A program made the position numbers and the translations under genes. Shown here one piece after another: positions 15,893 through 50,416 of a stretch of 50,416 nt of DNA. The notes under the pieces are model-generated. The model worked only from the letters and a program-made list of their open reading frames with translations. It did no database searches and was not told the origin of the DNA. Source of the DNA: Bacteroides sp. (GTDB taxonomy: Bacteria > Bacillota > Clostridia > Lachnospirales > Lachnospiraceae); assembly GCA_023666705.1 (NCBI GenBank), contig JAMPBO010000021.1, positions 1 to 50,416 of the forward strand, read 5' to 3'. Numbering within the stretch: the stretch's first letter is position 1; every line of letters starts with the position of its first letter.

Positions 15893-16241
15893 GCCGATGC
15901 AAGCCGGATAAGTGATTGCGGCTGCCATACGGCAGGTGAGGAAAGTCCGGGCTTCATAGGGCAGGATGCCGGATAACGTCCGGTGGAGGTGACTCCCAGG
16001 CTAGTGCAACAGAAATATACCGCTATATTTCATATAGTAAGGGTGGAAAGGCGAGGTAAGAGCTCACCGCTGCGTTGGTAACAAGGCAGGCTCTGTAAAC
16101 CCCATCCGAAGCAAGACCAAACATAAGACGATGCAGTTGCCCGCTGGGTCTTTAGGTAGGTCGCTTGAGCACTATGGTAACATAGTGCCTAGATAGATAA
16201 TCACTCTCGACATAACCCGGCTTATAGTCCGACTTGCATCT
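15893..16241 (+). ncRNA. rnpB: RNase P RNA (bacterial type)
   Basis: Catalytic RNA that removes tRNA 5' leaders. The universal P4 segment GAGGAAAGTCCGGGCTTC is at 15938-15955, followed by CAGGATGCCGG. Toward the 3' end are GTAAACCCCATC, the CCCGCTGGGTCTTTAGGTAGG segment (16140 onward) and CATAACCCGGCTTATAG. The ends pair to form helix P1: GATGCAAG near 15896 with CTTGCATC at 16233-16240. Length about 350 nt. The 3' end reaches the stop codon of the convergent kinase gene and no T-tract terminator is visible, so 3' processing or antisense termination is implied. Confidence 0.97.
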
Positions 16242-30962: not shown

Positions 30963-31973
30963 CTATCTCGGTAATTCAGTGAATCCTACCTTTTTCATAA
31001 CCTTACGCAAGGTTTTGTTTGCATAGTAGGATGCCTGTTCGGCATTTTCCTTTATTATTTTGTCGATATATTCCTTGTTCTTCGAGAGTGCCTCGAACCG
31101 TTCCTGAAGGGGAACAAGCTCAGCAGCAACTGCCTCGCCAACCATTTCTTTCAGCTGTCCGTAACCCATTCCTTCTGATTCCTTCAGTGCCTCATCAACG
31201 CTCTTGGAGGTTACGGCACAGTAAATGTCTAACAGATTTTTGATACCTGGTTTATCATCGCTATATGCAATAAAGCCGTCTGAGTCCGTGACCGCCTTCT
31301 TAAACTTTCTCATAATCGTATCCTTGTCATCCAAAAGTGAGATTGTCGCATTTGGATTTTCATCCGACTTTGACATTTTCTTTGATGGATCCTGCAGACT
31401 CATGATTCTGGCTCCGCTTTTTCCGATATACGCCTCAGGTATTGTAAACACGTCACCATATATTCCATTAAAACGTGTGGCAATATCCCTTGTAATTTCA
31501 AGATGCTGCATCTGGTCCTTGCCCACAGGGACATAATCCGCCTGATAAAGAAGGATATCTGCTGCCATAAGCACAGGATAAGTGAACAGACCCGTATTTA
31601 TGTTATCCGCATGTTTTGCAGCCTTATCCTTGAACTGGGTCATCCGGTTCATTTCCCCCATATACGTGTAGCAATTCAGTATCCATGCAAGCTGCGGATG
31701 TGCAGGGACATGGGACTGGAAGAAGATGCAGTTTTTTTCAGGGTCAAGCCCTGCAGCAATATAAAGAAGAAGCAGTGTCCTTGCACTTTTTCTTAAATTT
31801 GCCGGCTCCTGTCTGACCGTTATGGAATGTAAGTCCATAATGCCATAAAAGCATTTTATGTCTTCTTCCTCATTTAAGCTGACCCAATTTTTTAAGGCCC
31901 CCAAATAATTTCCAAGTGTTATGATTCCTGTTGACTGCATACCTGACAGCATCGTTTTCTTTCCGTCTATCAT
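30963..31973 (-). CDS. trpS: Tryptophanyl-tRNA synthetase TrpS (336 aa)
   Basis: Class I synthetase charging tRNA-Trp. The HIGH-type motif is TLGNYLGAL, KMSKS is present in PSKKMSKSDENPN, and the GKDQMQHLEITRDIA segment binds substrate. ATG 31973 is chosen because it has GGAGGTAACT directly upstream and matches the family N-terminus; an earlier in-frame ATG adds 19 unrelated residues. No T-box leader is visible. Instead the structured element at 32034-32169 lies upstream. Confidence 0.96.
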   Translation of the reverse strand: MIDGKKTMLSGMQSTGIITLGNYLGALKNWVSLNEEEDIKCFYGIMDLHSITVRQEPANLRKSARTLLLLYIAAGLDPEKNCIFFQSHVPAHPQLAWILNCYTYMGEMNRMTQFKDKAAKHADNINTGLFTYPVLMAADILLYQADYVPVGKDQMQHLEITRDIATRFNGIYGDVFTIPEAYIGKSGARIMSLQDPSKKMSKSDENPNATISLLDDKDTIMRKFKKAVTDSDGFIAYSDDKPGIKNLLDIYCAVTSKSVDEALKESEGMGYGQLKEMVGEAVAAELVPLQERFEALSKNKEYIDKIIKENAEQASYYANKTLRKVMKKVGFTELPR

Positions 31974-32006
31974 AGTTACCTCCGTTTTATATCTTATCAG
32001 CCATGA

Positions 32007-32169
32007 GCAAAACTCTGTTTTCGCAAACACTCGTTGTACAATATAGACAAATCACCGCAAGGCACGCTTTCGCTGCTTGTCGCTCATAACGGTGCTAAGT
32101 TCGAAAAAACCTCACTAAGCACCGATGGCTCCAAAGCACCTTGCTTATGATATTATCTATATTGCACAA
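32007..32169 (-). repeat. Structured palindromic element, copy 1 (136-bp core 32034-32169)
   Basis: The core starts TTGTACAATATAGACAA and ends with its near reverse complement. Within the core: outer stem (core 1-17 with 120-136), second stem (24-32 with 103-111), a GAAA-capped mini-hairpin (33-40, minus strand) and a hairpin (57-63 with 85-91). Four A.C mismatches on plus are G.U on minus. A conserved 27-nt tail reaches to 32007. It is upstream of trpS (minus strand) and 50 nt after the ABC-F stop. The second copy is at 50153-50316. Confidence 0.85.
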
Positions 32170-32218
32170 CTTAGTTTTAGAAATAATGCGTTTTGCTCAT
32201 TTCTATATCTTATGTCAA

Positions 32219-33850
32219 CTAATTTTCGTCATCGTTTACCATGTTCATAATCTGACGTTTTCTTGCCAGCTCATCACTTGCAAGATATTCGTCGTAGGTG
32301 GTCTGCTTATCTATCAGACCTGTGCTTGTGAGTTCCATAATTCTGTTTGCCGTTGTCTGTACAAACTGGTGATCCTGAGACGCAAACAGCACCACACCCG
32401 AAAACTTCATAAGTCCGTTGTTCAAGGCGGTGATTGACTCCATATCAAGATGGTTTGTCGGTTCGTCCAAAATCAATACGTTGGAGCCCATAATCATCAG
32501 CTTGGAAAGGAGACATCTTACCTTTTCTCCTCCCGAAAGCACCTTTACCTTCTTTACGCCGTCCTCACCTGCAAAAAGCATACGTCCGAGGAAGCCTCTC
32601 ACATATGTGGCATCCTTGTCATCCGAATACTGTGCAAGCCAGTCAGCTATCACCAAATCATTATCAAATTCCTTTGTATTATCCTTTGGAAAATATCCCT
32701 GCGACGTCGTAACGCCCCATTTGTAAGAGCCGCTGTCCGGTTCCTCCTCACCTGCTAAAATTTTAAACAGGGTCGTTGTCGCTATCGTATTCGGACCTAC
32801 AAACGCAACCTTATCATCATGTCCAATTGTAAAGGAAATGTTATCTAACACCTTAACACCGTCAACCGTCTTTGTTATATTTGATACTGTAAGCACTTCA
32901 TTTCCGATTTCTCTCTTTGGTCTGAAATCAATATATGGATATTTTCTGCTGGATGGCTTTATCTCGTCCAGTTCAATCTTCTCCAAGGCTCTCTTACGGG
33001 AAGTTGCCTGCTTTGATTTGGAAGCATTTGCGGAGAATCTCTGGATAAATTCCTGCAGCTCCTTTATTTTCTCCTCTTTCTTTTTGTTTGCTTCCTTCAT
33101 TTGCTTAATCATCAGCTGGCTTGACTCATACCAGAAATCATAATTTCCTGCGTACAGCTGTATTTTCGCATAATCAATATCTGCAATATGCGTACATACT
33201 TTATTTAAAAAATATCTGTCATGCGACACTACGATAACAGTATTGTCAAAATTGATTAGAAATTCCTCCAGCCATGCAATGGCATCAAGGTCCAGATGGT
33301 TTGTCGGCTCATCCAAAAGCAGCACATCAGGATTTCCAAAAAGTGCCTGTGCAAGAAGAACCTTAACCTTTTGGTTTCCGTCAAGCTCACTCATAGTTTT
33401 GTAATGAGTATCCGTATCTATGCCAAGTCCGTTTAAAAGTGTTGCCGCATCTGCCTCCGCATTCCAGCCATCCATATCCGCAAATTCCGCCTCAAGCTCA
33501 GAGGCACGCACACCATCCTCATCTGAAAAATCTTCCTTTGCATATATGGCATCCTTTTCCTTCATGATTTCATAAAGACGCTCATTTCCCATAATTACGG
33601 TATCCATTACTACGTATTCATCATATTTGTAATGGTCCTGCTGAAGCACGGAAAGCCGTTCCCCCGCATTCATAATTACCTCGCCGTTTGTAGGCTCCAA
33701 AGCCCCTGACAGTATTTTCAAAAATGTGGACTTACCTGCACCGTTTGCCCCAATTAATCCGTAACAATTTCCCTCGGTAAATTTAATATTCACATCCTCA
33801 AACAAAGCTTTTTTTCCAAGCCGTAAGGTTACATTATTTGCACTAATCAT
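32219..33850 (-). CDS. ABC-F ATPase with degenerate second Walker A (543 aa)
   Basis: Soluble protein with two ABC domains and no membrane part, as in ribosome-associated ABC-F translation factors or antibiotic resistance proteins. NBD1: Walker A GANGAGKST at 34-42, ELDGNQKVKVLLAQ in the signature position, LLLDEPTNHLD. A coiled linker rich in Lys/Glu follows. NBD2: the Walker A reads GPNTIATTT from residue 352, so the essential Lys is Thr358; signature LSGGEKVRCL and ILDEPTNHLD remain. ABC-F proteins often have divergent signatures, but loss of the Lys is notable. Behind a consensus promoter and hairpin-rich leader. Confidence 0.93.
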   Translation of the reverse strand: MISANNVTLRLGKKALFEDVNIKFTEGNCYGLIGANGAGKSTFLKILSGALEPTNGEVIMNAGERLSVLQQDHYKYDEYVVMDTVIMGNERLYEIMKEKDAIYAKEDFSDEDGVRASELEAEFADMDGWNAEADAATLLNGLGIDTDTHYKTMSELDGNQKVKVLLAQALFGNPDVLLLDEPTNHLDLDAIAWLEEFLINFDNTVIVVSHDRYFLNKVCTHIADIDYAKIQLYAGNYDFWYESSQLMIKQMKEANKKKEEKIKELQEFIQRFSANASKSKQATSRKRALEKIELDEIKPSSRKYPYIDFRPKREIGNEVLTVSNITKTVDGVKVLDNISFTIGHDDKVAFVGPNTIATTTLFKILAGEEEPDSGSYKWGVTTSQGYFPKDNTKEFDNDLVIADWLAQYSDDKDATYVRGFLGRMLFAGEDGVKKVKVLSGGEKVRCLLSKLMIMGSNVLILDEPTNHLDMESITALNNGLMKFSGVVLFASQDHQFVQTTANRIMELTSTGLIDKQTTYDEYLASDELARKRQIMNMVNDDEN

Positions 33851-50114: not shown

Positions 50115-50152
50115 GTTTGCTCTCCTTTTTTTCTTTAATAATCTAGGCAATT

Positions 50153-50316
50153 GCAAAACTCTGTCTTTTGAAAACGTTCGTTGTACAATATAGACAAATC
50201 ACCACAAGGCACACTTTCGTTATGTGTCGCACGTAACGGTACTAAGCTCGAAGAGACCTCGCTAAGTACCGACGGCTCCACAATGCCTTGCTTGCGATAT
50301 TGTCTATATTGTACAA
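50153..50316 (-). repeat. Structured palindromic element, copy 2 (136-bp core 50181-50316)
   Basis: Same length and orientation as copy 1, with 113 of 136 core bases identical and no gap. The outer 17-bp stem is perfect here. The hairpin at core 57-63/85-91 has A-T where copy 1 has G-C, and the GAAA mini-hairpin has A-U where copy 1 has G-C on the minus strand. A shared tail GCAAAACTCTGT is at 50153-50164. It lies upstream of the small membrane protein gene. Confidence 0.85.
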
Positions 50317-50416
50317 CTACTTATCGATAATATGACATTTCGCAATCACCTATTTAATAATCAACACATCCCTCATTGTACCGGAACCAGAACCAGAGTT
50401 TCATAATCAATTGCAT
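50317..50416. other. Window end: no supported gene
   Basis: The last 100 nt hold no complete gene. On the minus strand a reading frame running in from beyond the window could end near 50375 (ending LVLVPVQ) or 50354, but too little is present to choose a frame. Confidence 0.3.

Follow-up and report, generated by a model that had tools for sequence, protein, structure and literature searches.

The two related stretches at the centre of this analysis, copy 1 and copy 2, are inserted copies of a small mobile DNA element whose RNA-like fold has been kept by selection. Both lie in the window, meaning the whole 50,416-nucleotide stretch of DNA that was analysed. Our preferred reading, to which we assign a probability of roughly 45% from sequence comparison, is that they represent a lineage-restricted family of MITE-borne structured RNA elements that would act in cis in RNA processing or stability. 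The structured core of copy 1 occupies positions 32034-32169 and that of copy 2 positions 50181-50316. Both cores have their RNA strand on the minus strand, scoring 148.9 bits there against 26.5 bits on the plus strand for copy 1 and 152.1 against 37 bits for copy 2. The two 136-bp cores align without gaps and differ by 23 substitutions, just as the earlier note had described them. In copy 1, the outermost stem P1 pairs 32034-32050 with 32153-32169 and is followed inwards by P2, a three-way junction, P3, P4 and P5 and a GNRA hairpin. The latter has two base pairs and a GAAA loop (32066-32073, minus strand, from direct reading and loop classes); in copy 2, it is found at 50213-50220 on the minus strand with both sides of its stem different from copy 1. 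The two-sided pair changes previously pointed out at core positions 33/40 and 61/87 (G-C to A-T, read on the plus strand) are present, and all six non-Watson-Crick pairs are indeed A.C on the plus strand and G.U on the minus strand. Folding of the minus strand gave energies of -61.9 kcal/mol (z -8.3) for copy 1, folded as 32033-32168 and thus one base off the core, and -67.4 kcal/mol (z -9.1) for copy 2. The corresponding plus-strand values were -41.0 kcal/mol (z -5.0) and -52.4 kcal/mol (z -6.8), and none of 200 shuffles folded as well as the real sequence in any of the four folds (two copies, both strands).

The consensus structure comprises 51 pairs distributed over P1, P2, the arms P3-P4-P5 around the three-way junction and the two-base-pair hairpin, and the evidence from aligned sequences for compensatory base changes beyond chance in this core is very strong. 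An alignment that was not fitted to any model was assembled from 95 cores found by script, 68 of which had the standard length; removal of near-duplicates left 57 and removal of one deletion variant 56. In these 56 sequences, 97.8% of cells pair and two-sided changes occur in 24 of the 51 pairs, compared with a shuffle mean of 9.4 and with 0 of 500 shuffles reaching 24. Running covariance model R1 on 98 chosen loci yielded 110 diverse matches, 108 of them distinct. In the resulting alignment, which is fitted to the model, two-sided changes are found in 50 of 51 pairs (1527 such cells versus 392.5 when shuffled) and the covariation score is 0.718 versus 0.198 when shuffled. The proposal that a minus-strand fold is under selection has thus held up, as further copies were found and their changes keep the stems in the covariation tests.

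Wobble pairs in P1 lean in the same direction, with 27 G.U and 9 A.C cells in the unfitted alignment, although these cells are not independent and reduce to 8 and 4 position-and-type classes, respectively. Two fitted alignments gave 100 G.U versus 24 A.C and 91 versus 28, fitting itself favouring G.U, and the 12 copies from the window's own genome alone gave 17 versus 2 in those helices that were counted. As 24 of the 27 unfitted G.U cells arose by A-to-G and 3 by C-to-T changes, deamination of cytosines in an exposed strand does not account for the bias. Single-stranded DNA likewise favours G.T over A.C, so the wobble bias alone cannot decide between RNA and DNA. The loop of the junction hairpin is GNRA in 160 of 166 rows (56 + 110) and ANRA in the other 6; its second position can be any base, its third is a purine in all 166 rows and its fourth is always A. 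A purine at the third loop position is the rule for RNA GNRA loops, whereas stable DNA GNNA hairpins accept non-purines there. By inspection, a tandem G.A step is seen beside P4 in most rows of the unfitted alignment. The surroundings of the core take unusual forms at a few loci: at L310 and L315, the stem around the core resembles an intrinsic terminator by eye, with an A-run before and a T-run after it, and at L253, two cores of opposite orientation share one stem, the inner P1 being the apical stem of the outer copy, so that a dumbbell results (by eye).

The complete inserted elements, delimited by terminal inverted repeats and by direct repeats directly outside them, extend well beyond the cores, from 31998 to 32205 for copy 1 (208 bp) and from 50144 to 50352 for copy 2 (209 bp), both with the minus strand as RNA strand. 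Pattern searches placed the inverted repeats of copy 1 at 31998-32014 (ATGAGCAAAAC type, 2 mismatches) and 32189-32205 (same type, 0 mismatches), flanked by the target-site duplication TATCTTAT at 31990-31997 on the left and 32206-32213 on the right. The inverted repeats of copy 2 are located at 50144-50159 (CAATTGCGAAAT type, 2 mismatches) and 50337-50352 (same type, 1 mismatch), with the duplication TTTAATAATC at 50134-50143 and 50353-50362. Both target duplications are perfect, 8 bp long in copy 1 and 10 bp in copy 2. Two related types of inverted repeat, TAGNNATGAGCAAAAC and TAGGYAATTGCGAAAT, form the ends of the elements; TAGGYAATTGCGAAA and TAGNNATGAGCAAAAC are among the end motifs of the family. 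Having terminal inverted repeats, target duplications, a length of 208-209 bp that is too short for a transposase gene, and many copies, the window copies are MITEs by the criteria used for bacteria. A palindromic mobile element carrying the fold, one of two possibilities raised in the earlier note, is therefore present in both places. The conserved tail toward the gene noted at the same time is real as to its conservation, but it is the outer arm of the longer inserted element. Copy 1 is situated between two minus-strand genes: one for a two-domain, ABC-F-like ABC ATPase (32219-33850; Pfam PF00005 twice and PF12848), which ends about 14 nt from it, and one for a class I tRNA synthetase of the Trp/Tyr type (30963-31973; Pfam PF00579, E 2e-73), whose start was picked by eye and lies about 25 nt away. 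Downstream of copy 2 there is a short frame on the minus strand, for which Pfam gave no match at E<=0.001.

With copy 1 as BLAST query, the window's genome gave 65 matches, a total in which fragments and each of the two arms are separate entries. A covariance-model search for more copies, suggested earlier as a check, found 33 loci there with R1 at E<=2e-10, so the match between the two copies exceeds chance. A target duplication score of at least 8 was obtained for 22 of 54 elements with both ends recognisable, the duplications measuring 8-13 bp, while a control with shuffled right flanks averaged 0.56 and never exceeded 6 (lengths of 7-14 allowed). Where terminal repeats were not recognised, there was no sign of target duplication, with 1 of 106 copies in each of two tests and control means of 0.30 and 0.35. 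These 106 are the elements, out of 126 others, that fail a simple end-motif test, and in genome G178, the core is associated with another end type (by eye). Since the core is also found without the ends seen in the window, the family as a whole is broader than a MITE with these ends. Mini-elements of about 40-80 bp that consist of terminal repeats only and have no core are present as well. The centre of some of them is a single TTGTACAA, the 8 bases with which the core both begins and ends; this would fit either core insertion or core deletion between short repeats.

No obvious transposase was seen among the frames of 13 of 14 fetched regions of the own genome, and PF01609, the only transposase family searched in the window's draft genome, had 0 matches there. 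The gene beside terminal-repeat-only element L346, which we take to encode an Rpn-like nuclease, was considered as a partner and dropped because there was no recurrent link. An apparent empty site in genome G391, the counterpart of a site in G397 (C63), was likewise discarded, as the G391 version proved to be an internal deletion. Other repeats were encountered in and around the elements. A second small palindrome of about 45-60 bp, TGTCCTGAGGTG...AGTCCTGAGGACA or close variants thereof, is nested within a number of cores, either in their apical hairpin or close to P3 (L007, L018, L019, L021, L023 and L024 in the own genome; also L061, L111 and L143). An unrelated repeat of about 220 bp is located at L395:3160-3390 in G391, is missing at the orthologous G397 site and has more matches in both genomes, and a repeat of about 157 bp at L490:350-507 is matched, in part or in full, more than 20 times in G391.

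Closing stems differ between copies in a manner of their own. In G391, G357 and G282, the own P1 arms of a copy pair at 94-95% of positions and swapped arms at 45-50%, the figures for G391 being column-based and used for this comparison only; copies within G178 and within G370 have P1 in common to some extent, and swapped arms there pair at 66% and 75% of positions, respectively. Column-based P1 identities (alignment A3) were discarded because P1 columns slip by indels, as illustrated by L486 and L476, which score 0.21 yet share P1 by eye, and local alignment was used instead. Among copy pairs with a core similarity of at least 0.85, this test found arm similarity not to exceed the between-genome level in 4 of 4 pairs in G357, 5 of 6 in G282, 7 of 23 in G180, 17 of 85 in G178 and 11 of 54 in G370, while none of the pairs among the 11 copies of G391 that passed the duplicate filter reached the core cut-off. 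The clearest case comes from G282, where the cores of L289 and L295 are 98% alike and their arms unrelated. Point-by-point compensation cannot produce this combination; judging from the two sequences, P1 was swapped wholesale or the cores were homogenised by gene conversion. At 1501-1800, L295 also has a tandemly duplicated segment that spans the 3' half of the core, the right P1 arm and the roughly 30 nt that follow.

In several genomes, cores with 85-98% similarity are thus found on unrelated, self-complementary P1 stems of about 20 bp. One tentative interpretation of these sequences, which we hold to be possible and no better than a one-in-three prospect, is that the core is a core-only mobile or homogenised RNA module that gains a new, well-matched closing stem at each site. 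Such private stems could have come about by an inverted target copy made at insertion, by entry of the core into existing palindromes or by core-only gene conversion. One site hints at the inverted target copy: G397 lacks a copy that G391 has there, and by eye some 12-16 bp of the adjoining target recur in the left P1 arm of the G391 copy. As a general signal, no such repeat was seen over the 106 copies without recognised terminal repeats. A search of the literature with narrow terms returned no description of hairpins being built around a conserved core in bacterial genomes.

Constraint after insertion can be gauged from G391 and G397, which are sister genomes with eight copies alignable at six loci. 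Seven orthologous copies differ at 34 of 929 sites (3.7%) when a half-deleted copy is excluded, and the elements differ at 71 of 1021 sites (7.0%) when it is included. Their immediate flanks differ at 186 of 1342 sites (13.9%), or at 138 of 1252 (11.0%) without one misaligned flank to the left of L399, which runs over an indel and gives 48 of the 186 mismatches; flanks between paired copies are partly double-counted in this comparison. At a distance of 300-800 bp, in DNA that is presumably coding for the most part, 510 of 8011 sites differ (6.4%), a value close to the 7.0% of the elements with the half-deleted copy. Two-sided changes between the species are seen in two stem pairs of the L297 locus, of which one belongs to P4 and the other to P5. 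Copies are also lost, one being missing and others partly deleted in one of the two sister genomes. Because the flanks outside P1 are less conserved, they give no sign of a dedicated promoter or terminator.

According to crude gene calls, the elements are mostly intergenic, 18 of 181 lying inside a called frame. For the 144 elements with both neighbours called in this way, both run along the RNA strand in 39 cases and against it in 54, with the remaining 51 mixed. Individual genomes lean in opposite directions, G370 with 17 against the RNA strand and 3 with it, and G180 with 9 of its 14 single copies with the RNA strand, 1 against and 4 mixed (read by hand). Among 20 neighbouring pairs less than 400 bp apart in the aligned loci, 18 are divergent, none is convergent and 2 are on the same strand; 2 of the 18 repeat a locus or its ortholog, which leaves 16 independent divergent pairs. 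Beyond the counted pairs, there is a same-strand pair in G370 (C38) and a divergent one in the own genome (C25).

The family is confined to a narrow lineage in the genomes surveyed. R1 was positive at E<=1e-3 in 147 of 397 genomes of the window's family, the window's genome included and at most 8 candidates being scored per genome. R2, a covariance model built from the 110 diverse matches, was positive at E<=1e-5 in 11 of 391 class-wide genomes, and all 11 belong to the window's family, which contributes at least 16 genomes among those listed for this draw, 360 matchless genomes standing outside the list. Copy numbers at E<=1e-5 vary widely, with 39 in G370, 28 in G178, 16 in G391, 10 in G357, 8 in G282 and 1 in G232 by R1, and 42 in G180 and 18 in G397 by R2. 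A DNA pattern scan of named genomes found at least 110 stretches, those listed coming mostly from Lachnospiraceae or Clostridium records, and the carrier family is apparently Lachnospiraceae. Several true copies in a MAG titled Bacteroidales probably reflect a mislabelled record, and a lone Alteromonas match is probably a chance 18-mer. At gathering cut-offs, the Rfam search of the window returned RNase P only and no riboswitch or T-box; this bacterial class A RNase P RNA is located at window positions 15900-16240. At E<=10, copy 1 had one chance-level sRNA match (15.3 bits against a cut-off of 55), and across 18 divergent loci searched at cut-off, the element was unmatched and only an unrelated lysine riboswitch was found nearby. 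Copy 1 had no match in plasmid and phage records searched in distant mode, and one exact core pattern, a weak test, gave 0 matches in viral contigs. Narrow term searches of titles and the beginnings of abstracts in the open-access literature returned no description of the element family.

We hypothesize that copies with terminal repeats were moved by a transposase supplied in trans, as suggested by their ends and target duplications. Transcripts of neighbouring genes would read through the inserted element, which would fold co-transcriptionally on its RNA strand and then act in cis on the host transcript as a processing, stability or insulating structure. P1 may serve as the double-stranded part that is processed or protects, and the GNRA-capped junction may be a specific landing or tertiary-folding domain. 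A role of this kind in cis would explain why the element is tolerated at many intergenic sites and retained afterwards. The mixed orientation relative to genes, with the opposite leanings of G370 and G180, is awkward for a cis RNA function and is the main objection to it. It also weighs on the proposal, made in the earlier note, of a cis-acting 5' leader that regulates the downstream gene. In the window, each copy is indeed followed at a short distance by a minus-strand frame in sense orientation, and this part stands; across the family, however, neighbours that are both antisense outnumber those that are both sense, so leader function is not general, and neither the window at Rfam cut-offs nor copy 1 at E<=10 contains a riboswitch or T-box. 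We consider such a leader very improbable, and only slightly more credit goes to multi-copy genes for trans-acting small RNAs with a promoter for each copy. Genes of that sort would be strand-specific, highly structured and conserved at several fixed sites, as observed here, but with less conserved sequence outside P1 and a P1 that often differs between copies, no common promoter or seed is visible.

A serious alternative, and the main rival to a cis-acting RNA, is that the fold works as single-stranded DNA, that is, as an overgrown REP-, BIME- or attC-like site whose strand, extruded on the lagging strand or during transfer, is bound by a nuclease or recombinase. REP elements often occur as inverted pairs, and DNA hairpins, too, tolerate G.T pairs, GNRA-like loops and tandem G.A pairs. 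The general lack of orientation bias toward genes favours such a site, the close pairs, divergent in 18 of 20 cases and never convergent, resemble inverted REP pairs, and the nested dumbbell at L253 and several internal deletions are in keeping with palindromic DNA. Against it speaks the invariable purine at the third loop position, as in RNA GNRA loops, and the frequent difference of P1 between copies, on which basis a tag at the foot of P1 is not apparent. On balance, we would give a DNA site somewhat over one chance in four. An ordinary MITE, in which the palindromic fold of a non-autonomous transposon is needed for transposition only and has no function after insertion, would account for the terminal repeats, the target duplications, the mini-elements without a core and the loss or decay of some copies between the sister genomes. 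It is nevertheless improbable, at little over one chance in ten, given that divergence in the seven orthologous copies is about a third of that in their flanks and that two stem pairs at one site have changed on both sides. Moreover, the other end type in G178 (by eye) and the 106 of 126 elements without recognised ends in the simple motif test indicate that the core is not simply the inside of one transposon.

Structured RNA on mobile DNA is also known from the HEARO/IS605-associated RNAs and other transposon RNAs in Rfam; at its cut-off, no Rfam family matched the element, either in the window or in the 18 divergent loci. REP/BIME sequences are similarly palindromic, intergenic and arranged in inverted pairs (18 of 20 divergent here), but REP elements are described as 20-40 bp long (PMC3733652), a palindrome size exceeded by the 136-nt core, and the main text of that article mentions neither 'Clostrid' nor 'Firmicutes'. 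In the Bacillus cereus group, bcr1-bcr3 are reported to be MITE-like and often located in UTRs or operon gaps, and bcr10 and bcr18 to have conserved secondary structure (PMC3446304); bcr1 is about 150 bp long (PMC2267715). As described there, these are likewise lineage-limited intergenic repeats with structure; they belong to another lineage, and the family reported here is set apart from that description by a core common to many genera with different ends and by a P1 private to copies in several genomes. Correia/NEMIS, ERIC/IRU/RU-1 and YPAL/RU-2 are small mobile repeats, about 100-200 bp in size, that give rise to long stem-loops when transcribed, and repeats of the NEMIS, ERIC and YPAL type have been proposed to affect mRNA processing or stability, with in vivo support for ERIC (PMC2229807). 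In contrast to the long stem-loops described there, the present elements have a branched core, a GNRA hairpin at the junction and family-wide covariation. By analogy, the family appears to behave like bacterial MITE-type repeats with structured transcripts such as bcr, NEMIS and ERIC.

Carried by over a third of the sampled genomes of the family, with tens of copies in some and no Rfam match, the element is a sizeable unannotated feature of these genomes. The private P1 stems pose the question of how, at each new site, the cell comes by another complementary stem to enclose the conserved core. If the element works as RNA, transcripts from dozens of loci in a genome may be shaped by it; an element working as DNA would be a new type of folded mobile site.
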